48,588 nt of DNA from an uncultured Eubacteriales bacterium. Its GTDB lineage: Bacteria; Bacillota; Clostridia; Oscillospirales; Oscillospiraceae. A model generated the notes under the pieces. That model searched no databases. It was not told the origin of the DNA and saw nothing but the letters and a program-made list of their open reading frames with translations. The position numbers and the translations under genes are program-made. The stretch lies in contig CATJWI010000094.1 of the NCBI GenBank assembly GCA_949744075.1, positions 1 through 48,588 of the forward strand. The letters run 5' to 3'. Numbering within the stretch: position 1 is the first letter of the stretch; every line of letters starts with the position of its first letter. Shown piece after piece: positions 2,783 through 43,579 of this stretch.

Positions 2783-2811
2783 TTGTCAAAGGATGACATA
2801 AATAGTATAAT
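2783..2811 (+). promoter_or_regulatory. SigmaA-type promoter for the M60/SLH operon
   Basis: TTGTCA - 17 nt - TATAAT. Confidence 0.75.
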
Positions 2812-2877: not shown

Positions 2878-5800
2878 ATGAAAGTGAGAACTCGAATCCT
2901 GTCAGCGGCGGTGGCTCTGGCCATGGTCTGCTCTCTGTGTACGCCGGTCATGGCGGCAGAGGAGGAAGGAAGCGGGGTGACGGGAAGCATCACCGCTACC
3001 CTGCGGCTGGACTATGCCCAGAAGCGCAACGAGCTTTTGAGGCGGCAGGTGCAGGTGCGCCTGCTGCGGGACGGAAGACCGGTGGGGGCCGCCCTGCTGG
3101 GACAGGACGGCGGGCTGGACCAGGTGGGGGACTACCCGGCGGAGCTCTCCGCCCGGAACGCAGACGGCGGCGACCTGGGAGACGGCCAGTGGCCGGCTTA
3201 CCTGGAGTTGACGGTCCGGGACCTGCCCCAGGGAAGCTATACCCTGGAATTTACCGGGGAGGGCTATGTGCCCTATACCCAGAAGGTCCGGCTGGCCGAC
3301 TATGCCCAGCACGTCATCGTGGGCAACGGAGACGCCACCTTTACCCTGGGAGATGTGAACGGGGACGGCAAGGTGGACGAGAGGGACCGGAAGGCCCTCT
3401 CCGCCGCCCTGGACTCCGTCCGCCGGGCCGATTTGGAGAAGTATGACCTCAACGGCGACGGGGTCGTGGACATCGTGGACCTGGCCTATGTGAACCGGAT
3501 GATGGTCACGGAGGGCGGGGCGGAGGTGAAGGACACCCTGCTCCTGGCCCCCCCGGTGGATACCCAGGCCACCCAGGCCGCTTTGGCCCAACAGGGCACT
3601 ACCCTGGAAGGGGAGCTGAGTGACCTCTTTGCCGACAACGGCAAGGGGGTGGAGCTCACCGTGGACCGGGGGGATATCGTGCTGCCCCTGACCATGACCA
3701 AGGCGGTGGAGACCCAGGAGGTCCAGATCCTCTCCCCGGCGGGGCAGGGGGGCCTGGTGGCCGGCACCGTGGAGGTAGAGGATGAGCGGGGGAACAGGAC
3801 CACTGTTCCTTTTGACCAGACCTTGCCCCAGGGGGTCCACGCCATCAGCCCCCGGGCAGGCAGCAGCGTCATCACCATCGACCTGGGCAAGCGGGTGCCG
3901 GTGAAGAAGATCACCATCACCGTCACCCGCACCGAGACCGGCGGCTATGCTGCGGTGGAGGCCATCCAGTTCCTGAAGGACATCGTCCCCGAGACCCCCG
4001 CCGCCCCCAACAGCGTGGTGAAGGGCCTGTCCGCCACGGCGGGCAGCGAGATGGTGGAGCTGAAGTGGAACGAGCTGCCCAATGTATCGGGCTACAAGGT
4101 CCTCTACTGGCCCCAGAAGGACGCGGGCAAGACCCAGGAGCTCCATGTGGATACTACCAGGGCCCAGGTCAATGGCCTGGAGAACCTGACCACCTATGTC
4201 TTTACTGTCACCCCCACCGACGGGGAGTGGGAGGGCAAGGCCTGCGACCCAGTGGTGGCCACCCCCCAGCCGGTGAAGGTGCCGGACAAGACCGATATGG
4301 TCCAGGTCACCGCCATGGAGGGGGCCCTGGGGGTCTCCTGGAAGGCGGGGAAGTCTGCTACCTACTATGAGGTGTACTACCAGCGCAAGGGGGATACCGC
4401 CTGGCAGCAGGCGGGGCAGCGGCTGAGCCAGACCCGGACTACCATCGGGGGACTGGAGAACGACGTGACCTACTGCGTCTACGTGGTGGCGGGCAACGAC
4501 ATCGGCAAGGGCCCCCGGTCCGATATCTCCGAGGGGACCCCCAAGGCGGTGAAGTACGAGCGGCCCGAGGGGATCCCCACAGAGGGTATTTTGGACAACA
4601 GCCTCATTTCCAGCATCGCTCTGGCGGACACGGGGAACTATGACCACAGCAGCTATAACGGCAGTAGCCCCTTTACCGCGCGGAACATGATCGACGGGGA
4701 CTACCGCACCCACTGGACTGCCGCCTGCTGGTGGCGGAATGAGCATGTGGTGTGCACCTTTGCCCGGCCGGTGGACCTGAGCGCCGCCATCTGGGTGCCC
4801 CGGCTGGACGGCAGCTATCCCACCAACCTGCGGGCCTACAGCGTCCGGGTGTGGTACGCTGACGACCCGGTGGGCAGCCCCGGCCACCTGGTGACCCCTG
4901 ACGAAGTACGGGGGGGTGTGGACAACGGCGGCACGGGACGGGACGTGGACACCTGGCCTGGCGTCCAGGGCAACCCGGCGGTGAGCAACTTCGCCGTGCT
5001 GCCCTTCAGCCCCGCCAAGGGTGTGGTGAAGATCAGCCTGGCGGTGGAGCAGCGGGACTACCTCACCGTCAGCCTCTCCGAGCTCATGTTTCTGGAGTAC
5101 GACCCGGCCCACAGTTTGCCCGGGGAGATCGAGGCCCTCTTTGCCGACAGCCTGCGCACCCAGCTGGCCCAGGGAGTCACCCAGGAGCGCATCGACGCCT
5201 TGAGGGCCCGGCTGGGCAGCGACGAGCGAAACTACTATGTGGACCTGAATACCCTGGCCGACGAGCTCTCCCTGGCCCAGGAGCTGCTGACAACGGGGAA
5301 GAGCAAGGGCGTGGTCCTCTCGAGCCTGGATAGCCGCAACAGCGCCGTGGACGGCAAAAAGTACAGCCAGGGCGGCAGCCAGCTCCAGCCCCTGGGGGTG
5401 ACAGCCGGGGCCAATCAGGAGCTTACCGTCTACGCTGAGGGCATCCCCGAGGGGGAGAGCGTGACCCTCTACGCCAGCCAGTTCAACGCCGAGGCCTCCA
5501 CCTGGCTGCGGGAGATCGGCAAGGTGGAGAACGGAAAGACTATCCTCCTGGTGCCCAAGATCGGCAGCCGGGCGGGGAACAATGGCGGCAGCCTGTACGC
5601 CGCCTACACCGGGGAGAATGGGGAGGCCATCCGCCTCCATATCCGCCGGGGGCTGGATATCCCCGCCTTGGAGCTGGCTCACTGGTATGACATGACCGAG
5701 AGCGCCCGGCGGCAGGCCATCGGAGCCTATGTGGACGAGCTGGGGACCTATCTAAGCGGGCTCAAAATGGGCAGCCCCACCGCCGACTACCGGAACGTCA

Positions 5801-7824
5801 CCGAAATATCCACCCCCGTAGTGCTGCTGTCCCTGCCCGCCCTGGCGGTGCAAAACGCCCTGGGCCAGAGTGGCCGGGAGGAGAAGGTCGACACCCTCTA
5901 CAACGCCGTCCTGGCCTGGGAGGACATCATGGCCATTTGTAAGCGGACCCAGGGCATCGACCGGGTCTACGCCGAGAACGACATGGAGTCCCGCCAGAAT
6001 ATCCGGTGTATGACCATGTTTGCCGGGGCCTTTATGTACGCCGCCGGGAACCACATCGGCATCGGCTATGGTTCTTGCGGCGGCATGGTCACCGGCCGGC
6101 CCATCCCGGCGGGGGGAGAGAGCTCCGCCAACGGCCTCTTCGGCTGGGGCATTGCCCACGAGATCGGCCACAACATGGACAAGTTAGGCAAGGCCGAGAT
6201 CACCAACAACATCTACTCCATCATGGTCCAGACCTGGGACGGCAAGGCGGCCACCCTGCCCTCCCGGCTGGAGAAGAGCGGTAAGTATAACGGCATCTTC
6301 ACCAAGGTGGCCCAGGGCTACCCCGGCATGTCCAACGACGTCTTCGTCCAGCTGGGCATGTACTGGCAGCTCCACCTGGCCTACGACGGGGCGGAGGACC
6401 CCCTGGCCTTCTACAACGCCTTCTTCAAGGCCTGGAAGGCGGGGACCTACACCGCCGGGGCGGCCTCTTATGACGACAAGGTGGCCCTCACCGCCGCCGG
6501 AGTGGCGGGGCGGGACCTGACCGAGTTCTTCACCCGCTGGGGCATGACCCTTTCGGCGGAGACTAAGGCCAAGCTGGCCGCCTACCCCGCCGAGGACCGG
6601 GCCATCTGGTATCTCAGCGACCAGAGCCGCCGGGACTTTATCAACGGCTTTGTCCGCTCCACCGGCACTCTGACGGCCCGGGCGGAGAAGACGGAGGACA
6701 ACGCCGTTACCCTCACCCTGGACGCCGCGGGGATCAGCGGGCCGCTCCAGGGCTACGAGATCCTCCGCAACGGCAAGCCCATCGCCTTCGTCCCCGCGGG
6801 GGAGGAGCGCACTGCCTCCTATACCGACGTCATCGGCTCGGCCAACCACCGGACCTACCGCTATGAGGCGGTGGCCTACGACACCCTGGGCAACCGGATA
6901 AGCGCCGCCGACACCGGGGAGGTGCGAATCGCCTACGACAAGACGGTGGATCCGGACAAGTATACCATCGCCCAGGCTGCCGACGGCACGGTGACCATCG
7001 CCCTGAAGGAGGAGACCGCCGTCTCCGGCCTAAAGCTCCAGAGCTTCCAGCCCACCGGGGCGGAGTACACCGTCACCGTGGCCCCGGCGGAGGGGGAGGG
7101 GGTCGCCGCCCTCTCCGGCACTTTGGATGAGGCCCACAACCAGGCGGTGGACGATTTGGACAGCTTCGTGGCCTATTTCAAGCTGCCTGGGGCGGCTCAG
7201 GAGGACACCCGCATCTGGACCTACGACGCCAAGATGGTGACCATCACCGGCCTGCCCGCAGGTATGGACCTGGACCAGGTCCGGCTCATCACCTACCCTG
7301 GGGACGACGTGGCCTTCCTGGAGGGGGCCACCATGGGCCTGCTGGGGGAGGATTACACTTATGATACCCTGGAGGGGACCGAGACCATCCCGGCGGGGAC
7401 CCTGGTGATCCTGGGCACCTACCGGGGAGACCCGGTGTACAACACCCTGACAGTGGAGGGCCGCTTCACCGGCACCCAGGCTGATGGGGAGCTCACCGAG
7501 GCCCCGGCGGCGGAGCGCCCGGTGGCGGGCTATGCCCTGCTCTTCGCCCAGGTGCCCGAGACGGGCCCGGTGAGCGACATCAGCGACGGGCTCTTCCTCT
7601 TCGTCCCCGACGTGCAGCAGGAGGCGGCCCTCCAGGGCCAGGCCAGCACCTGCTCGGTGAGCAATCTGCTGCCCACCCAGATCCGGGTGAACCTCTACCG
7701 CACCGATGATCCCGAGGACGCCTCCAGTAAGCGGCTCACCGCCCAGACTCTGTGGATATACAGCCCCGGCGGCCAGGCGGAGGACCTGCCCTCCGTCACC
7801 CTGGAGGGAGGGAGTCAGGGATGA
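2878..7824 (+). CDS. Secreted M60-like (enhancin/mucinase-type) metallopeptidase with dockerin-like, FN3 and F5/8 type C-like modules
   Basis: Signal peptide; DVNGDGKVDERD...DLNGDGVVDIVD duplicated Ca-binding loops (about 3346-3504); FN3-like repeats; HEIGHNMDKLGKAE matching HExxHx(8,28)E of M60. Confidence 0.85.
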   Translation: MKVRTRILSAAVALAMVCSLCTPVMAAEEEGSGVTGSITATLRLDYAQKRNELLRRQVQVRLLRDGRPVGAALLGQDGGLDQVGDYPAELSARNADGGDLGDGQWPAYLELTVRDLPQGSYTLEFTGEGYVPYTQKVRLADYAQHVIVGNGDATFTLGDVNGDGKVDERDRKALSAALDSVRRADLEKYDLNGDGVVDIVDLAYVNRMMVTEGGAEVKDTLLLAPPVDTQATQAALAQQGTTLEGELSDLFADNGKGVELTVDRGDIVLPLTMTKAVETQEVQILSPAGQGGLVAGTVEVEDERGNRTTVPFDQTLPQGVHAISPRAGSSVITIDLGKRVPVKKITITVTRTETGGYAAVEAIQFLKDIVPETPAAPNSVVKGLSATAGSEMVELKWNELPNVSGYKVLYWPQKDAGKTQELHVDTTRAQVNGLENLTTYVFTVTPTDGEWEGKACDPVVATPQPVKVPDKTDMVQVTAMEGALGVSWKAGKSATYYEVYYQRKGDTAWQQAGQRLSQTRTTIGGLENDVTYCVYVVAGNDIGKGPRSDISEGTPKAVKYERPEGIPTEGILDNSLISSIALADTGNYDHSSYNGSSPFTARNMIDGDYRTHWTAACWWRNEHVVCTFARPVDLSAAIWVPRLDGSYPTNLRAYSVRVWYADDPVGSPGHLVTPDEVRGGVDNGGTGRDVDTWPGVQGNPAVSNFAVLPFSPAKGVVKISLAVEQRDYLTVSLSELMFLEYDPAHSLPGEIEALFADSLRTQLAQGVTQERIDALRARLGSDERNYYVDLNTLADELSLAQELLTTGKSKGVVLSSLDSRNSAVDGKKYSQGGSQLQPLGVTAGANQELTVYAEGIPEGESVTLYASQFNAEASTWLREIGKVENGKTILLVPKIGSRAGNNGGSLYAAYTGENGEAIRLHIRRGLDIPALELAHWYDMTESARRQAIGAYVDELGTYLSGLKMGSPTADYRNVTEISTPVVLLSLPALAVQNALGQSGREEKVDTLYNAVLAWEDIMAICKRTQGIDRVYAENDMESRQNIRCMTMFAGAFMYAAGNHIGIGYGSCGGMVTGRPIPAGGESSANGLFGWGIAHEIGHNMDKLGKAEITNNIYSIMVQTWDGKAATLPSRLEKSGKYNGIFTKVAQGYPGMSNDVFVQLGMYWQLHLAYDGAEDPLAFYNAFFKAWKAGTYTAGAASYDDKVALTAAGVAGRDLTEFFTRWGMTLSAETKAKLAAYPAEDRAIWYLSDQSRRDFINGFVRSTGTLTARAEKTEDNAVTLTLDAAGISGPLQGYEILRNGKPIAFVPAGEERTASYTDVIGSANHRTYRYEAVAYDTLGNRISAADTGEVRIAYDKTVDPDKYTIAQAADGTVTIALKEETAVSGLKLQSFQPTGAEYTVTVAPAEGEGVAALSGTLDEAHNQAVDDLDSFVAYFKLPGAAQEDTRIWTYDAKMVTITGLPAGMDLDQVRLITYPGDDVAFLEGATMGLLGEDYTYDTLEGTETIPAGTLVILGTYRGDPVYNTLTVEGRFTGTQADGELTEAPAAERPVAGYALLFAQVPETGPVSDISDGLFLFVPDVQQEAALQGQASTCSVSNLLPTQIRVNLYRTDDPEDASSKRLTAQTLWIYSPGGQAEDLPSVTLEGGSQG

Positions 7825-9149
7825 GGCGGAGAGGGCTCAAGGCCCTGGTTTTGACTGCCGCCCTGCTGCTTCAGCTCTCCCTGCCCGCCCTTGCCGCCGG
7901 GCCCCGGCTCACCTACCGGGACAGCGGCAGCCGGGGGGCCCGGCTCATCCTACGGGACCTGGGGGAGGGGAACGTCTACGGCGTTCAGCTGGAGCTGACG
8001 GTGGCGGGCAGCTATGCCTCCGCCTCCTTTACCCCCGACAGCGGGGAGGCGTACAGCCCTGACTGCGGCCTGGAGACCGCCAGAGGCAACACCCAGATCA
8101 CCGTCTATGTGACCAGCCGCTCCCCCCTCAACGACGGGGAGCGGCTGGACCTGGGGATCCTGGAGCTAGACAAGTCCTTCTCCATGCCATCCACCGCTAC
8201 TGTGACCCTGCTGGGCCGGGAGCTGAAGCCCCTCTCCGGTGGGGACGGGGTGACGTTGCCGGTCTCTGAGGCCCCCCGGGAGACCGGGGGCGGTGGCGGC
8301 GGGGGAAACAGTATCCCCACCAACGCCCAGTACGCTATCAACGTGGAGGAGACCGACCACGGCACCGTGACCGCCGACGCCAAGAAGGCCCGGTTCCGGG
8401 ACAAGATCACCCTGACGGTCCGGCCCGACCGCCGCTATGAGTTGGAAAGCCTCACCGCTACCGACGGCCAGGGTCGGGAGCTGACCCTCACCGAGGGGGA
8501 GGAGGGGGAGTACACCTTCCTCATGCCCTATAGCGACGTGACGGTGACCGCCCGGTTCCGCCGCCCTCCCCAGGAGCCCATCGACCTGCCCTTCACCGAT
8601 GTGGGGGAGGAGGACTGGTTCCGGGAGGCGGTGGAGTACGTCTACCGCCGGAAGATGATGACGGGCACCTCGGAGACCGCCTTTGACCCCGGCCTCACCA
8701 CCTCCCGGGGGATGATCGTCACGGTGCTCCACCGGCTGGCGGGCGCCCCCCCGGCGGAGCTGTCCGGTTTCCCCGACGTGCCGGTGACCCAGTATTACGC
8801 CGGGCCGGTGGGCTGGGCCTCGGCCAACGGTATCGTCAGCGGCTACGGGGGCAATGAGACGGGTACCTTTGGCCCGGAGAACAGCATCACCCGGGAGCAG
8901 TTGGCGACCATCCTCTACCGCTATGCGGAGAAGGAGGGGTACGATACGGACGAACGGGGGGACCTGTCGGCCTTTACTGACCGGGAGGAGATCTCCTCCT
9001 ATGCCGCCGACACCCTGAGCTGGGCGGTAGGCGTGGGGCTCATCTCAGGCATGGGCAACGGCCGGCTGGACCCCGGTGGCAGCGCCACCCGGGCCCAGGT
9101 GGCTACCATGCTGATGCGGTTTTGTGAGAATGTGGCTGAGATGGAATAA
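7821..9149 (+). CDS. Secreted S-layer homology (SLH) domain protein with N-terminal possible cohesin-like domain and a beta-rich middle domain
   Basis: ATGA overlap with the upstream gene; signal peptide; three C-terminal SLH repeats (FTDVGEEDWFREAVEYVY..., FPDVPVTQYYAGPVGWA..., SSYAADTLSWAVGVGLISG...). Confidence 0.82.
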   Translation: MRRRGLKALVLTAALLLQLSLPALAAGPRLTYRDSGSRGARLILRDLGEGNVYGVQLELTVAGSYASASFTPDSGEAYSPDCGLETARGNTQITVYVTSRSPLNDGERLDLGILELDKSFSMPSTATVTLLGRELKPLSGGDGVTLPVSEAPRETGGGGGGGNSIPTNAQYAINVEETDHGTVTADAKKARFRDKITLTVRPDRRYELESLTATDGQGRELTLTEGEEGEYTFLMPYSDVTVTARFRRPPQEPIDLPFTDVGEEDWFREAVEYVYRRKMMTGTSETAFDPGLTTSRGMIVTVLHRLAGAPPAELSGFPDVPVTQYYAGPVGWASANGIVSGYGGNETGTFGPENSITREQLATILYRYAEKEGYDTDERGDLSAFTDREEISSYAADTLSWAVGVGLISGMGNGRLDPGGSATRAQVATMLMRFCENVAEME

Positions 9150-9188
9150 AAAAAGGACCTGATTTCCCGGGAAATCAGGTCCTTTTTG
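9148..9188. terminator. Bidirectional intrinsic terminator
   Basis: Perfect palindrome aaaaaggacctgatttcccgggaaatcaggtccttttt. Confidence 0.88.
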
Positions 9189-21481: not shown

Positions 21482-22225
21482 GTGAACACATATAAAACTG
21501 CGGAAGTTGCCGCAATTATTGGAGTACACCCAAACACAGTGCGGTTATATGAAAAACGAAAGCTGATACCAAAGCCGGAACGACGGTCAAATGGCTATCG
21601 TGTATTTACAGAATTTCATATAGAGCAATGTAAGCTGATCCGGCTTGCATTTCAAGTAGAGGTCTTGCAGAACGGGTTAAGAAAGAAAATGGCACAGGTG
21701 ATCACAGTATCAGCGACAGGAGACTTTGACATGGCCATTGTGCTTGCGAAAAACTATTTGAAGCAAATCGGACGGGAACGACAAAGCGCAGAGGAGGCCA
21801 TTGAAATTGTAAAGAAGATCTTATCCGGCGATGGAGGGGAAAACGATGGTCATTTGAAACGAAAAGAGGTATCAAAGATGTTTGATATTTCTATGGACAC
21901 GCTCCGGAATTGGGAAATGAACGGTTTGCTTTCCGTAAAAAGAAAAGAGAACGGGTATCGCGTCTATACGGATGAGGATATACGACGGCTAAAAATCATC
22001 CGTTCTTTAAGATGTGCAAATTATTCCTTGGAATCGATCCTGCGTCTTTTACAACAGCTATCCCAAAATCCCGATACAGATATTCGCGCTGCACTAAATG
22101 AGCCAAAGCAAACAGGTGACATTATTTCTGTCTGCGACAGGCTTATTGTGTCGCTGTCAGCGGCAGAGAAGAATGCACGCGCCGTTTTGAATATGCTGTA
22201 TGATATGAAGATCCGATTTTCATAA
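21482..22225 (+). CDS. MerR family regulator with two MerR-type HTH domains
   Basis: YKTAEVAAIIGVHPNTVRLYEKRKLIPKP and LKRKEVSKMFDISMDTLRNWEMNGLLSVKRKENGYRVYTDEDIRRL; strong RBS aaaaggaggtgg before GTG 21482. Confidence 0.82.
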   Translation: MNTYKTAEVAAIIGVHPNTVRLYEKRKLIPKPERRSNGYRVFTEFHIEQCKLIRLAFQVEVLQNGLRKKMAQVITVSATGDFDMAIVLAKNYLKQIGRERQSAEEAIEIVKKILSGDGGENDGHLKRKEVSKMFDISMDTLRNWEMNGLLSVKRKENGYRVYTDEDIRRLKIIRSLRCANYSLESILRLLQQLSQNPDTDIRAALNEPKQTGDIISVCDRLIVSLSAAEKNARAVLNMLYDMKIRFS

Positions 22226-22237
22226 CCTTACACTTTG

Positions 22238-22270
22238 CCACCAATGTTTTCATTGGTGGTATTCTTATTT
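22238..22270 (+). terminator. Hairpin with weak T-tract between merR and the ABC genes
   Basis: ccaccaatg-tttt-cattggtgg. Confidence 0.5.
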
Positions 22271-22296
22271 TACAAAAAGCAAAAGGAGGATTTATT

Positions 22297-23022
22297 ATGG
22301 AGACGGTGATCCATGTGGAGCGGTTGTCAAAATCCTATGGCGGCCTGCTTGCGGTAGACAAAATCAGTCTATCCGTAAAACGCGGAACTGTTTACGGGCT
22401 TCTTGGTGCAAACGGCGCAGGAAAAAGTACAACGATGGAATGTATTTTAGGCACAAAAAATGCCGACAGCGGAAGGATATCGGTCTTGGGTTATAACCCT
22501 AAAAAGGACAGACACCGCTTATTTCAGAATGTTGGCGTTCAGTTTCAGGAGGGCGGTCATCAGCCGGAAATCAAAGTTTCCGAGCTGTGTGAAGAGACCG
22601 CCTGCCTGTATAAAGAGCCTGCCGACTGGAAAAAACTTTGTGAACAGTTTGGAATAGGCAGTAAGATCGGTAATGTGGTAAAGAGTTTGTCCGGCGGGGA
22701 GCGTCAACGCTTATTTATCGCACTTGCCTTGATCCCAAGGCCGGAACTGGTATTTCTTGATGAATTGACTACCGGGCTCGACGCAAAGGCCCGGCGTGAG
22801 GTTTGGAAAATATTATCCGAATTAAAAAGCAAGGGGTTGACGATTTTCTTGACCTCTCACTTCATGGACGAAGTAGAAGCCCTATGTGATGAGGTCTGTA
22901 TTTTGAGAAATGGGAAGGCCGTATTTTTTGGAACCGTTGAACAGGCAAAGAAAGCCAGCGGTTGTGAGAAATTTGAAGACGCTTACCTTATGCTCTCGGG
23001 CGAGGAGGTCGGGAAAGAATGA
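22297..23022 (+). CDS. ABC transporter ATP-binding protein
   Basis: GANGAGKST, LSGGERQRL, LVFLDELTTGLD. Confidence 0.92.
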   Translation: METVIHVERLSKSYGGLLAVDKISLSVKRGTVYGLLGANGAGKSTTMECILGTKNADSGRISVLGYNPKKDRHRLFQNVGVQFQEGGHQPEIKVSELCEETACLYKEPADWKKLCEQFGIGSKIGNVVKSLSGGERQRLFIALALIPRPELVFLDELTTGLDAKARREVWKILSELKSKGLTIFLTSHFMDEVEALCDEVCILRNGKAVFFGTVEQAKKASGCEKFEDAYLMLSGEEVGKE

Positions 23023-23762
23023 GATCGATAAGAACACTTTTGAAAAATGAGCTAAAACTGAACATTAGAGATATGAATATGGTTATTTTCGCTGTCATTC
23101 TGCCGTTGATCGTTTTGCTTATTTTGGGTCTCATGTATGGAACGGAGCCCGCCGCAGACGGGGCAGCATATACATTTATGGAGCAGTCCTTTGGCGCGCT
23201 ATGCTGCATTTCCATTTGTGCCAGCGGATTTATGGGTTTGCCTCTTGTAGTAGCAGGCTATCGGGAACGAAAAATCTTGAAGCGTTTTCAAGTGACTCCT
23301 GTCAGTCCGGCAAAATTACTTTTGGTAGAATTTTTGATTTATATTATCTATTGTATCCTGTCAATGATAACCCTGTTTCCTGCCGCCATGCTGTTTTGGA
23401 AAATAAGAATACATGGGTCTTTCCTCTTGTTTTTGGGAAGTTGGCTTTTGACTATGCTATCGACTTTGAGTATAGGGTTATTGGTTGGGGGGATCGCGAA
23501 AAATACCAAAAGTGCAAGTGTGGCCGCCTGTATCCTGTATTTCCCTATGCTGATTTTTTCGGGAGCGACACTGCCCTTTGAGGTCATGCCTGCCGCCATG
23601 CAAAAGATGATCGGTATCTTTCCGTTGACACAAGGGATTCAATTGATGAAAGCGGCATTTCTGGGGTTGCCGGTTGAAAATGTGCTGCTTTCGGTTGCGG
23701 TGATGTGTGCCGTTACACTGGTTTGTTTTGCTGTCTCTGTAAAGTGTTTCAAATGGGAATAA
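23019..23762 (+). CDS. ABC-2 type transporter permease
   Basis: Six hydrophobic segments; overlaps the ATPase stop. Confidence 0.87.
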   Translation: MRSIRTLLKNELKLNIRDMNMVIFAVILPLIVLLILGLMYGTEPAADGAAYTFMEQSFGALCCISICASGFMGLPLVVAGYRERKILKRFQVTPVSPAKLLLVEFLIYIIYCILSMITLFPAAMLFWKIRIHGSFLLFLGSWLLTMLSTLSIGLLVGGIAKNTKSASVAACILYFPMLIFSGATLPFEVMPAAMQKMIGIFPLTQGIQLMKAAFLGLPVENVLLSVAVMCAVTLVCFAVSVKCFKWE

Positions 23763-23875
23763 ACCTTTCATTGTAAAACATAAGCACGAGATACATTATA
23801 AAGTAAATCCGCTGTAGGACAGCGTTTATAGATATGGAAGGCGGTATGAGCAGCTATCATATACCGAATATATTA

Positions 23876-23903
23876 TTGACATATGACAAAAATAGTGTAT
23901 AAT
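23876..23903 (+). promoter_or_regulatory. Consensus sigmaA promoter of the DUF134 gene
   Basis: TTGACA - 16 nt - TATAAT. Confidence 0.75.
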
Positions 23904-23948
23904 AAAAGGCACAAGAGCATATCGAAGATAGAAAAGGGGAAAATAGCG

Positions 23949-24719
23949 ATGGCAAGGCCCAGAAAATGCAGAAAGGTGTGCCACTTTCCCCAGAGTAGAG
24001 GCTTTTTCCCCGATCCACCCGGAGAGGGAGGGACCATTTTCCTAACGGTGGAGGAGTACGAGACCATACGGCTCATTGACGGGCGGGGCCTTTCTCAGGA
24101 GGAGTGCGGCGCGTCCATGGAGATCGCCCGCACCACCGTCCAGGCGATTTATGCCCAGGCCAGGAAGAAGCTGGCCGACGCGCTGGTGGAGGGCCGGCCC
24201 TTGGAGATCCAGGGGGGAGATTATCGCTTGTGCCAGGGCGGCCGGCGGGACTGCGGCGGCTGTTTTAAGCAGTTTTATTATCAGCATTACCCCAAACCGA
24301 AAGGAGAAAACAGCATGCGGCTGGCGATCCCCTATGAGGAGGGACAGATCTTCCAACATTTTGGACACACCAAACGATTCAAGCTCTACGACGTGGAAGA
24401 GGAGCGCATCACGGCTACTCAGCTGGTGGATGCCGGCGACCAGGGTCACGGCGCCCTGGCGGGAGTCCTTCACGCCCTCCATACCGACGTGCTGATCTGC
24501 GGCGGGATCGGCGCCGGGGCCCAGGCGGCCCTGGAGGGGGCGGGGATCCGTTTCTACGCCGGAGTCACGGGGGAGGCGGACCGGGCCGCGGAGGCCTTGC
24601 TGGCCAGGACGCTGGCCTATGATCCGGCTGCGCGGTGCGACCACCATGGGGAGCACCACCATCATCACAAGGACGGCCGGGACTGCGGCGGACACCATTG
24701 CTGCGGGCCGGCTGACTGA
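23949..24719 (+). CDS. DUF134 DNA-binding domain fused to a NifX/NifB (dinitrogenase Fe-Mo cofactor) domain, with a His/Cys-rich tail
   Basis: MARPRKCRKVCHFPQ... (DUF134), MRLAIPYEEGQIFQHFGHTKRFKLYDVE... (NifX/B), C-terminus CDHHGEHHHHHKDGRDCGGHHCCGPAD. Confidence 0.85.
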   Translation: MARPRKCRKVCHFPQSRGFFPDPPGEGGTIFLTVEEYETIRLIDGRGLSQEECGASMEIARTTVQAIYAQARKKLADALVEGRPLEIQGGDYRLCQGGRRDCGGCFKQFYYQHYPKPKGENSMRLAIPYEEGQIFQHFGHTKRFKLYDVEEERITATQLVDAGDQGHGALAGVLHALHTDVLICGGIGAGAQAALEGAGIRFYAGVTGEADRAAEALLARTLAYDPAARCDHHGEHHHHHKDGRDCGGHHCCGPAD

Positions 24720-40599: not shown

Positions 40600-40660
40600 A
40601 AAAGCAGGATAGGAGAGGGTGCACCCTCTCATGACCCAGAAAAAAGGAGCGGGTGAAGGG

Positions 40661-43579
40661 ATGAAAAACACCAAACGACTCGTTACGCTGCTGCTAGCCG
40701 CCGCTATGGTGCTGTCCATAATGACGGTGGGCTGCGCTACGGAGAGCCAACCGAAGTTTGAGGATGTGCCTGCCGGGACCTGGTATACGGAAGCGGTGGA
40801 GTACTGCCGGGAAAAGGGGCTGATGAGCGGCACTTCCGGGGGCCGGTTTGAGCCCGGCAGCACCATGACCCGGGCCATGCTGGTCACGGCTCTTTACCGG
40901 CAGGCCGGGGAGCCCGCCGTTACGGGGACCGACGGCTTCAGCGACACGGAGGAGGATACGTGGTATTCTAAGGCCGTCCTTTGGGCCAGTCAGGAAGGGC
41001 TGGTCAGCGGGTACGGAAACGGGCTCTTTGGGACCGGCGATCCGGTGGCCCGGGAGCAGATCGTCACCATTCTCTGGCGGATGGCGGGAAGCCCCGGGGC
41101 GGAAGAAGGCGGGGCCTTTACCGACCAGGACCGCATCTCTCCCTATGCCGTTGCCGCCGTGGCCTGGGCCAGGGAAAAGGGGATCGTCAGCGGCCGGGAC
41201 GGGGACCGCTTTGATCCCCAGGGGGAGGCCACCCGGGCGGAGGTCGCCGTTATTTTGAGCAATCAGGCCAAACAGGGCGAGACCGTCCCGGAGCCCATGC
41301 CCTCGCTCAGCACGTCCCCTTCCGGCGCAGGCGGTTCCGGCGGCGGCTCCGGGCCTGCGCCCGTACAGGATGATCTTGTGCTGATCCAGGGGGGTACCTT
41401 CCAGATGGGCAGTCCGGCAGACGAGCCGGAGCGCAGTTCCGATGAGGTCCAGCACAGGGTGAGCGTGGGTAGCTTCTACATGGCAAAGACTGAGGTATCC
41501 CAAAAAGAGTACCAGAACATGATGGGGTCCAACCCCAGCGAGACCAGGGGCGACGACCTGCCCGTGACGAATCTCACCTGGTACGACGCCATCCGGTATT
41601 GCAATAAGCGCAGTGAGGCCGAGGGTCTGACGCCCTGCTATACCATCGAGGGCGCCACTGTGACCTGGAACAGGGCAGCCAACGGGTACCGCCTGCCCAC
41701 GGAGGCGGAGTGGGAGTATGCCGCCCGGGCCAATACCGCCACCCCCTTCAGCTTCGGGGACGATGTCCACAACAGCGACGCCAACTGCTACAATGCCTAC
41801 GGCTACAACAACGACGCCAGCGGCAGCTGGGTCAACGGCTCTGGCACCTACCTGAGAAGGACCGTGGCGGTGGATGCCTACGCCGCCAATCCCTATGGCC
41901 TCTATAATATGCACGGCAACGCAGCCGAGTGGGTGTGGGATTGGTATGGTGTGTACGGCTCTGGCACAGCGTCCGACCCAACCGGGCCGGAGGGCGGAAA
42001 TGCCAAGGTCGTCCGGGGCGGCGGCTGGAACGACCATCCCAAGCATATCCGCTCTGCCTACCGGGGGGCGCAGCCTGCCGACGTGGGCCTTTACAGCATC
42101 GGCGTGCGCCCGGTGCGAAATGCGGAAGCCGGCTCCGGTCGGGTGAGAAGCGAATATACCGCCGTTGCCGGGACGGAAACCGGCAAAACGCTCATCGTCT
42201 ACTTTTCCCAGACCGGAAACACCGAGGGCCTGGCTAAGTTGATCCAGGAGATGAGCGGGGCGGACATCTTCCGGTTGGAGCGGGCGACTCCCTATTCCTC
42301 CAGCAGCAACGGGCCCGTACTCTACGGGGAGGCGCTGGATGAGCTGCGCTCCGAGGCCCTTCCGGAGCTGAAGGCCTGTCCCGATATTGACCGGTATGAC
42401 ACCATCCTTCTGGGATACTGTAATTGGTGGTCCTCCGTCCCTGCGGCGGTCCGGACCCTGCTGACTAGGGCCGACTTCAGCGGGAAGACCATCGTCCCCT
42501 TCTGCTCCATGGGGGGCGGACGGTTTGGACAGACCATCAGCGCCATCGCCAAGCTGGCCCCCAACAGCGTGATCAGGGAGGGGCTGGAGGTCACCTATTC
42601 CTTCTACGACAGGGAAGAGATCGCCGCCTGGCTGGAGCGCTCCCTTCCCGCCGCACCCGGCCCCGACCCTGATCCGGACCCGGAGCCGGCGGGAGCCCAT
42701 GTGTTGGTGGCCTATTTCTCCGCCACCAATAACACGGAGAACATCGCGAACCACATCAAGGCCGCCTTTGGGGAGGAGGCCGACCTCTACGAGATCGTCC
42801 CCGAAACGCCCTACAGCTCCGCTGACTTGAACTACAATAACGATTCCAGCCGGGCCAACCGGGAGCAGAGCGATGCCAGCGCCCGCCCCGCCATCACCGG
42901 AATGGTGGCCAACATGGGGCAATATGACGTGGTCTTTTTGGGCTATCCCATCTGGCATGGACAGGCGCCTAAGATCCTGTACACCTTTGCCGAGTCCTAT
43001 GACTTGGCTGGGAAGACTGTCGTTCCTTTCTGTACCTCGGGCAGCAGTCCCGTGGGCTCCAGCGCGACGAATCTGGCGGCGGTGACCGACGGGGCCTCCT
43101 GGCTCTCCGGCAGGCGCTTTTCCGGCAGCGCGGACCAGGCCGCTGTGGAGAGTTGGATAGACAGCCTGGAGCTGCCCGAAGCAGCGCAGGGACAGACCGA
43201 GACCGCTCGGCTGTATCTTCAGGTCTCCGGCGGGAAGGAGGCCCTGTGGACGGCTACGCTGGCGGAGAACTCCTCGGCGGAGGCCTTAAAGGAGCTGCTG
43301 AAAGGCGGCCCCCTGACCATTGAAATGAGCGATTACGGCAGCATGGAGAAGGTGGGGCCCATTGGCCGGAGCCTGCCCACCAATAATCAGCAGATCACCA
43401 CAAACGCCGGCGACATTATCCTCTATCAGGGAGACCGCTTGGTGATCTACTATGACCGCAATTCCTGGAATTTCACCCGCCTGGGCAAGGTGGATGAAGT
43501 GACCCAGGCGGAGATGAAGGAGGTCCTTGGGACCGGCGGCGTGACAGTGACCCTCTCCTTGACGGCCCCCGGTGCCTGA
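40661..43579 (+). CDS. Surface lipoprotein: SLH x3, FGE-sulfatase-like, flavodoxin x2, cyclophilin-like
   Basis: Lipobox TVGC; SLH repeats; LIQGGTFQMGSP...YRLPTEAEWEYAARA...GNAAEWVWDW; flavodoxin starts TLIVYFSQTGNTE and VLVAYFSATNNTE; C-terminal cyclophilin-like MEKVGPIGRSLPTNNQQITTNAGDIILYQGDRLVIYY. Confidence 0.87.
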   Translation: MKNTKRLVTLLLAAAMVLSIMTVGCATESQPKFEDVPAGTWYTEAVEYCREKGLMSGTSGGRFEPGSTMTRAMLVTALYRQAGEPAVTGTDGFSDTEEDTWYSKAVLWASQEGLVSGYGNGLFGTGDPVAREQIVTILWRMAGSPGAEEGGAFTDQDRISPYAVAAVAWAREKGIVSGRDGDRFDPQGEATRAEVAVILSNQAKQGETVPEPMPSLSTSPSGAGGSGGGSGPAPVQDDLVLIQGGTFQMGSPADEPERSSDEVQHRVSVGSFYMAKTEVSQKEYQNMMGSNPSETRGDDLPVTNLTWYDAIRYCNKRSEAEGLTPCYTIEGATVTWNRAANGYRLPTEAEWEYAARANTATPFSFGDDVHNSDANCYNAYGYNNDASGSWVNGSGTYLRRTVAVDAYAANPYGLYNMHGNAAEWVWDWYGVYGSGTASDPTGPEGGNAKVVRGGGWNDHPKHIRSAYRGAQPADVGLYSIGVRPVRNAEAGSGRVRSEYTAVAGTETGKTLIVYFSQTGNTEGLAKLIQEMSGADIFRLERATPYSSSSNGPVLYGEALDELRSEALPELKACPDIDRYDTILLGYCNWWSSVPAAVRTLLTRADFSGKTIVPFCSMGGGRFGQTISAIAKLAPNSVIREGLEVTYSFYDREEIAAWLERSLPAAPGPDPDPDPEPAGAHVLVAYFSATNNTENIANHIKAAFGEEADLYEIVPETPYSSADLNYNNDSSRANREQSDASARPAITGMVANMGQYDVVFLGYPIWHGQAPKILYTFAESYDLAGKTVVPFCTSGSSPVGSSATNLAAVTDGASWLSGRRFSGSADQAAVESWIDSLELPEAAQGQTETARLYLQVSGGKEALWTATLAENSSAEALKELLKGGPLTIEMSDYGSMEKVGPIGRSLPTNNQQITTNAGDIILYQGDRLVIYYDRNSWNFTRLGKVDEVTQAEMKEVLGTGGVTVTLSLTAPGA

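Follow-up and report, generated by a model that had tools for sequence, protein, structure and literature searches.

A conserved gene pair encoding a dockerin-bearing M60 peptidase and a candidate cohesin-like surface anchor in gut Clostridia

Two adjacent genes at the locus

The stretch of DNA analysed here (the window) comprises the 48,588 nucleotides of contig CATJWI010000094.1, read on the forward strand, from the GenBank assembly GCA_949744075.1 of an uncultured Eubacteriales bacterium in the family Oscillospiraceae. This report concerns two adjacent genes near its left end. Gene 1 encodes a secreted M60-type peptidase that carries a dockerin, and gene 2 encodes a secreted protein with S-layer homology (SLH) repeats and an N-terminal domain of about 125 amino acids without a family match, which we call NDOM. 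We consider the pair here as a candidate cell-surface tether.

The product of gene 1 runs from a signal peptide through an N-terminal beta domain, the dockerin, a further region, two fibronectin type III (fn3) domains and an F5/8-type-C-like region (a weak Pfam match) to the M60 domain. Pfam scored Peptidase_M60 (PF13402) at 64.1 bits (cut-off 25.8), with the HEXXH gluzincin motif present as HEIGH, and the nearest solved structures were F5/8-type-C and Zmp M60 glycopeptidases (best E-value 4.7e-21). The initial annotation had noted two dockerin-style calcium loops on this protease; both are there in the translation as 12-residue F-hand loops, DVNGDGKVDERD and DLNGDGVVDIVD, within a type I dockerin (Dockerin_1, 33.0 bits, cut-off 22.9).

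Six positions of the second loop (D1, L2, G4, D5, D9 and D12) were invariant in 29/29 aligned pairs. The first loop was looser—D1 was kept in 27/29, D5 in 24/29 and D9 in 17/29—and in the orthologues L047 and L049 the alignment has a longer, non-canonical stretch in its place. Because loop 2 is invariant and loop 1 loose, the sequences suggest that the dockerin binds with a single face, through its second repeat, and not in the symmetrical dual mode described for many cellulosomal dockerins (available part of PMC5429695). The N-terminal beta domain, for which boundaries set by eye were used in aligning orthologues, directly precedes the dockerin and is in that sense X-module-like. When the two were modelled together, the Foldseek matches were generic immunoglobulin-like folds and the dockerin part was of low confidence, so the likeness to an X-dockerin unit is one of position.

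The start codon of gene 2 is at 7821; the mechanical list of open reading frames (ORFs) has it further upstream, at a GTG at 7752. The end of gene 1 overlaps the start at 7821 in the sequence ATGA. Both this overlap and a secreted SLH protein with an N-terminal stretch of about 125 amino acids had been described in the initial annotation, and the sequence reads as described. Neither Pfam nor NCBIfam holds a family that matches NDOM. The InlB B-repeat between NDOM and the SLH repeats is absent from some orthologues, and the middle-domain model has rows from 18/25 loci.

Conservation of the gene pair

A first search, with a 253-residue query against 300 genomes of the family, yielded 24 genomes with NDOM, for which full neighbourhoods were examined. 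In each of them, the first gene downstream of M60, on the same strand, is the NDOM gene (24/24). A profile built from these 24 NDOMs was then run on the 300 family genomes and on 196 genomes of the class. It detected NDOM in 32/300 family genomes, one copy each; those newly found (G118, G182, G053, G198, G282, G273 and G189) were all paired with M60 alike, and an NDOM found by position in G200, paired likewise, brings the family to 33 genomes. Five of the 196 class genomes have NDOM, and the four additional ones among them, from two other families, were all paired. Overall, NDOM was found in 37 genomes and lies directly downstream of an M60 gene on the same strand in 37/37, a degree of conservation that makes the pair more than a chance juxtaposition. 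Spacing could be scored for 23 of 25 pairs (the window's included): 13 have the ATGA-type overlap (−4), one overlaps by a single base (−1), eight are separated by 0 to 20 bases and one by 125.

Every peptidase from an NDOM genome with a readable N-terminus has a dockerin (33/33). Four N-termini were unreadable, three being cut by contig ends (G050, G282 and G481) and one chimeric (G118). At that last locus (L130, 7309-9246) the N-terminal half of the M60 protein is replaced by unrelated sequence and the NDOM partner is still there, which is probably an assembly chimera. A thirty-eighth genome, G180, has a dockerin-M60 gene at a contig end, its stop codon overlapped by the start of a signal-peptide gene.

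Viewed from the peptidase, 42/300 family genomes have an M60 homologue and 33 of these 42 have NDOM; conversely, NDOM without M60 occurs in 0/33 family genomes. The nine M60 genomes outside the NDOM set are G180, G202, G216, G294, G077, G152, G207, G288 and G156. The M60 homologue of G156 (locus L144) is a distant one, with neither dockerin nor partner by the models applied; as the only such case, it did not serve as a formal negative control. No relatives of the pair were found in a search of viral contigs. Twelve loci recovered in a search with the whole of gene 2 were set aside, as they matched mainly through the SLH and middle repeats and neither NDOM nor M60 was seen in them.

Recognised cohesins in genomes with and without NDOM

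The genome from which the window comes is a 2.0 Mb draft in 194 contigs. It contains exactly one Pfam dockerin, that of gene 1, and no Pfam cohesin (PF00963) at E ≤ 1. Of the 300 family genomes, Pfam detects a dockerin in 133 and, at E ≤ 0.001, a cohesin in 80. Cohesin matches were found in 4/29 dockerin genomes with NDOM versus 73/104 without it (Fisher p 6e-8, an overstated value because shared ancestry is uncorrected). Those of G143, G147 and G214 are on contigs other than that of NDOM, and among the PF00963 matches listed, which do not include that of G070, none is at an NDOM. The number of dockerins in the 32 NDOM genomes is one in 23 and two to seven in five; the other four have none over threshold, two being contig-cut, one the chimera and one below threshold.

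Exchange of the anchor among relatives

Among the more distant relatives, G294 and G216 have M60 domains about 35% identical and a downstream gene with a weak match to NDOM (E 2e-3 and 5e-5). This partner has no SLH repeats after NDOM but a linker rich in proline, then a TGD motif, one membrane helix and a basic tail; motif, helix and tail resemble those of sortase or membrane anchors. A neighbouring gene in G202 is similar by eye to these partners and has no significant NDOM match. Four genomes from a different genus (G077, G207, G288 and G152) have single proteins of 2,173 to 2,247 amino acids that join a dockerin-like stretch to M60 and to SLH repeats at the C-terminus, and a separate NDOM partner gene was not detected in them; such one-polypeptide loci include L137, L138, L139 and L141. 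An NDOM may lie inside these g77 fusion proteins, between the catalytic part and SLH, although its score is not significant. Because SLH repeats, a membrane or sortase-like tail and fusion in cis alternate, surface anchoring of the peptidase seems to be constant and the type of anchor variable.

Comparison of NDOM with cohesins

Profile-profile comparison of 36 NDOMs gave P 0.0014 against 20 cohesins and P 1.8e-4 against 11 ‘gut’ cohesins (a label for loci L078 and up, a non-cellulosomal-looking set of unchecked habitat). With 48 non-redundant cohesins, P was 4.6e-4 for 36 NDOMs and 0.0065 for 24. The comparison of 36 NDOMs with 36 gut cohesins scored 28.4 (P 2.5e-4), against controls of at most 17.1 for 200 column shuffles, 11.2 for the reversed profile and at most 19.3 for nine other domains of the system. 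Addition of four further NDOMs (40 in all) gave P 3.1e-4, with 300 shuffles reaching at most 18.3. The range for the enlarged profiles was P 2.5e-4 to 5.5e-4, beyond every control tried and with a probability score (Prob) below 50%. In the alignment register, strands 2 and 3 of NDOM and its Pro-Leu-Asn-Asp-Gly turn fall on the matching cohesin elements. A positive control of five cellulosomal against eleven other cohesins gave Prob 99.7%, so NDOM is far less cohesin-like than cohesins are to one another. The signal is weak: above all controls tried, below proof and varying with the cohesin set.

The fold was modelled from one sequence, that of the window, and the model has eight strands; the cohesin fold is a nine-stranded jelly-roll beta-sandwich. 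In VIA-align the best cohesin was that of Clostridium perfringens GH33 (2vo8; Z 9.3, rmsd 2.8, 112/135 aligned), followed by 2jh2 (Z 8.9), 2w1n (8.7), the archaeal non-cellulosomal 2xdh (8.3) and several cellulosomal cohesins; absence from the VIA-align output was not counted against any fold. The second Foldseek match was the C. perfringens cohesin-like module 2jh2_C (E 5.8e-3). As modelled, NDOM is compatible with a cohesin fold without proving one.

Discussion

We judge it likely that the gene pair is a dedicated cell-surface tether of the cohesin-dockerin type for a single M60 enzyme, with NDOM as a divergent socket. Gene 1 would supply a secreted M60-type zinc glycopeptidase with its N-terminal dockerin as plug, and gene 2 a wall-bound protein on which NDOM, a cohesin-like domain that has diverged very far, would be the socket to receive it. 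The SLH repeats would bind the cell wall, with the InlB-B-like repeat as spacer, and coupled translation through ATGA would provide matched amounts of both partners. Held at the cell surface by binding of dockerin to NDOM, predicted to depend on calcium, the peptidase would there cleave O-glycosylated proteins of the host, mucin for example. A host mucin-type glycoprotein is probably the substrate, because the M60 relative BT4244 degrades mucin (available part of PMC3267712).

The initial annotation had gone as far as a minimal cell-anchored complex with a cohesin-type beta-sandwich. Gene neighbourhood, one-to-one occurrence, the scarcity of Pfam cohesins and the exchange of anchors speak for such a complex, and the profile comparison and the low-confidence fold agree on the sandwich; neither Pfam, NCBIfam nor a PDB sequence match confirms the cohesin. 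Comparison of a predicted structure with cohesins, which the annotation had proposed as a check, gave the 2vo8 match, in a tie with AP2 mu2 and from a model of low confidence.

The evidence that weighs against our reading begins with sequence. Pfam cohesin matched 0/24 NDOMs and none of four further partner proteins, and a profile search of the PDB with NDOM, like the plain sequence searches, returned no cohesin. (The matches that it did return, virus capsid proteins with a best E of 0.17 and one phage protein, were taken as chance.) Since NDOM fails to match the Pfam profile, it is not assignable by sequence to the PF00963 cohesins and we do not file it there. The smaller set of 24 NDOMs against 20 cohesins gave only P 0.033 and Prob 1.5%, 36 NDOMs against the five cellulosomal cohesins P 0.57, and one divergent NDOM subgroup alone P 0.086 and 0.072 against cohesins. 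The model has low confidence (pLDDT 56.1, pTM 0.52). Foldseek gave no match at E ≤ 1e-3 and placed an integrin first (4.3e-3), and in VIA-align AP2 mu2 equals 2vo8 at Z 9.3, with integrins and alpha-macroglobulin just under the two. Among the relatives, the stretch between M60 and SLH in the g77 fusions has an NDOM-like pattern but scores −0.4 to 8.8 bits, which is not significant, and the dockerins of two distant proteins (L137 and L142, one from g77, the other from g95) score 10.4 and 14.0 bits, too low for the Pfam cut-off. The window genome is 78% complete. Finally, 31/133 dockerin genomes have neither NDOM nor a Pfam cohesin, so orphan dockerins exist anyway; those 31 genomes may hold further unrecognised dockerin partners beyond NDOM.

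A broader proposal, which we consider tentative, is that the dockerin receptors typified by NDOM are a family apart, so far unrecognised and missed by cohesin models, that would give each genome a private socket for a single dockerin. Its anchors would be exchangeable (SLH, a membrane or sortase-like tail and possibly fusion in cis), and the family would explain some of the orphan dockerins in gut Clostridia.

It is unlikely that the tether is real but made by other parts. In that reading NDOM would bind the C-terminal region of the peptidase or one of its other domains, and the dockerin would have some other partner or a purely structural, calcium-stabilising role. Co-evolution speaks for this alternative: distance-based (mirror-tree) analysis gave partial r with NDOM of 0.23 for the dockerin, 0.28 for the N-terminal domain, 0.35 for fn3 and −0.07 for SLH, which does not pick out the dockerin over other gene 1 domains and is a further point against the preferred reading. 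The degenerate first calcium loop of L047 and L049 also fits it. However, the second loop, with six invariant positions, is conserved as a binding element should be; dockerin and NDOM co-occur wherever both are readable, and most NDOM genomes are without a Pfam cohesin.

We also think it improbable that NDOM does not bind the peptidase at all and is an all-purpose beta-sandwich (for instance the part of an SLH adhesin that binds glycan or mucin), whose gene shares a transcript with that of the peptidase for functional reasons. The lack of a family match would suit such a domain, as would structural neighbours that include CBM2/CBM3-type modules and other jelly rolls, and the M60 protein has a possible glycan-binding region of its own in the weak F5/8-type match. 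Yet this leaves unexplained why the dockerin is constantly retained with NDOM, why recognised cohesins are missing and why an NDOM-like domain persists across anchor types.

That the partner of the dockerin is a conventional scaffoldin with several cohesins, encoded elsewhere in the genome as in a mucinolysome, and gene 2 an unrelated surface protein, is very improbable: the incomplete window genome leaves room for it and G070 and G147 have seven and six dockerins with one weak cohesin match each, but 23/32 NDOM genomes have exactly one Pfam dockerin and 28/32 no Pfam cohesin (assembly qualities pooled), and instead of several cohesins on a scaffoldin with many dockerin enzymes we found one NDOM per genome and, in the 78% of the window genome that is represented, one dockerin.

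The cohesins of OlpA and OlpC, cell-surface scaffoldins of Clostridium thermocellum, are canonical, common to many cellulosomal enzymes and part of the cellulosome; these proteins combine a single cohesin with SLH. The tether proposed here would resemble them in that a surface-tethered protein, there with a type I cohesin, catches dockerin enzymes directly at the cell wall (available part of PMC12811415). Unlike theirs, NDOM is unrecognised by Pfam and is paired with one adjoining peptidase gene.

Dockerins on host-glycan enzymes outside cellulosomes have already been described, in pairwise complexes of C. perfringens and in the Limousia mucinolysome (PMC12997984, in the part available, as for the statements that follow from it). 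The C. perfringens complexes of cohesin (X82) and dockerin are likewise non-cellulosomal, pairwise and concerned with host-glycan enzymes (PMC12997984), and the cohesin structures closest to the NDOM model come from this species. In those complexes each cohesin is part of a glycoside hydrolase and links one enzyme to another; NDOM belongs to an SLH anchor without catalytic function and would link an enzyme to the wall. The Limousia mucinolysome, also of gut bacteria, holds dockerin-bearing mucin enzymes, peptidases included, at the cell wall through scaffoldins; it differs in its multi-cohesin scaffoldins, its dockerins numbering up to tens and its detection by Pfam cohesin models (PMC12997984). 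Because that survey used Pfam cohesin models, the NDOM pair would escape it, and the terms M60 and SLH have no occurrence in the main text of PMC12997984. OlpA/OlpC are closest in layout, C. perfringens in pairwise non-cellulosomal logic and the Limousia mucinolysome in biological setting.

In the survey of M60-like (PF13402) proteins, the domain table gives dockerin type 1 in two proteins and S-layer homology in one (available part of PMC3267712); ‘cohesin’ does not occur in its main text, nor was a partner gene seen in the part available. Our literature search, with subscription journals largely outside its scope, recognised no description of an M60-dockerin/SLH-cohesin gene pair.

If the proposed tether is real, cohesin-dockerin tethering extends to one-enzyme modules with a receptor unseen by standard cohesin models, so that surveys relying on a Pfam cohesin match find too few of them. 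It would also give a set of orphan dockerins from gut bacteria a concrete partner, may be a way for commensals to keep a mucin-type protease at their surface, and would offer a small plug-socket pair for protein engineering.

Feature coordinates and neighbouring genes

Positions of the features of the pair are collected in Table 1. The promoter-like site 5′ of gene 1 is weak, because about one such site would be expected by chance across the region. The hairpin 3′ of gene 2 is strong by folding energy, yet it is missing from the pattern-scan output.

Table 1. Features of the gene pair, in coordinates of the window.
Feature	Position	Strand	Basis
Promoter-like site, TTGTCA-17-TATAAT, 5′ of gene 1	2783..2811	+	11/12 matches; weak
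Gene 1, secreted dockerin-M60 peptidase with signal peptide, 1,648 aa	2878..7824	+	ORF and Pfam
N-terminal beta-sandwich domain, residues ~28-152	2959..3333	+	Boundaries by eye; low-confidence single-sequence model
Type I dockerin with two calcium loops, residues 157-208	3346..3501	+	PF00404
Peptidase_M60 catalytic domain with HEIGH	5914..6543	+	PF13402; motif from translation
Gene 2, secreted surface anchor protein, 442 aa	7821..9149	+	ORF and Pfam; signal peptide by eye
NDOM, putative dockerin receptor, divergent cohesin-like beta-sandwich, residues ~27-150	7899..8270	+	Profile, model and neighbourhood
Divergent InlB B-repeat (Flg_new_2), putative spacer	8331..8564	+	Pfam, 34.7 bits (cut-off 23.6)
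Three SLH repeats, predicted cell-wall anchor	8586..9140	+	PF00395, 86.9 bits (cut-off 20.8), three stretches
Terminator hairpin 3′ of gene 2, flanked by A/T tracts	9150..9187	+	−28.7 kcal/mol, z −6.1

Directly 5′ of the pair, two similar M20-type peptidase-like genes stand in tandem on the same strand (200-1498 and 1387-2679, +), as judged from their translations. Further along, the GC content falls to 0.44 at about 22000-24000, against about 0.62 around it; an ABC-2 type transporter lies inside this segment and a MerR-type regulator just before it. At 40619-43576 (+), a frame of 986 amino acids combines three SLH repeats with FGE-sulfatase-type, flavodoxin and cyclophilin-like domains.

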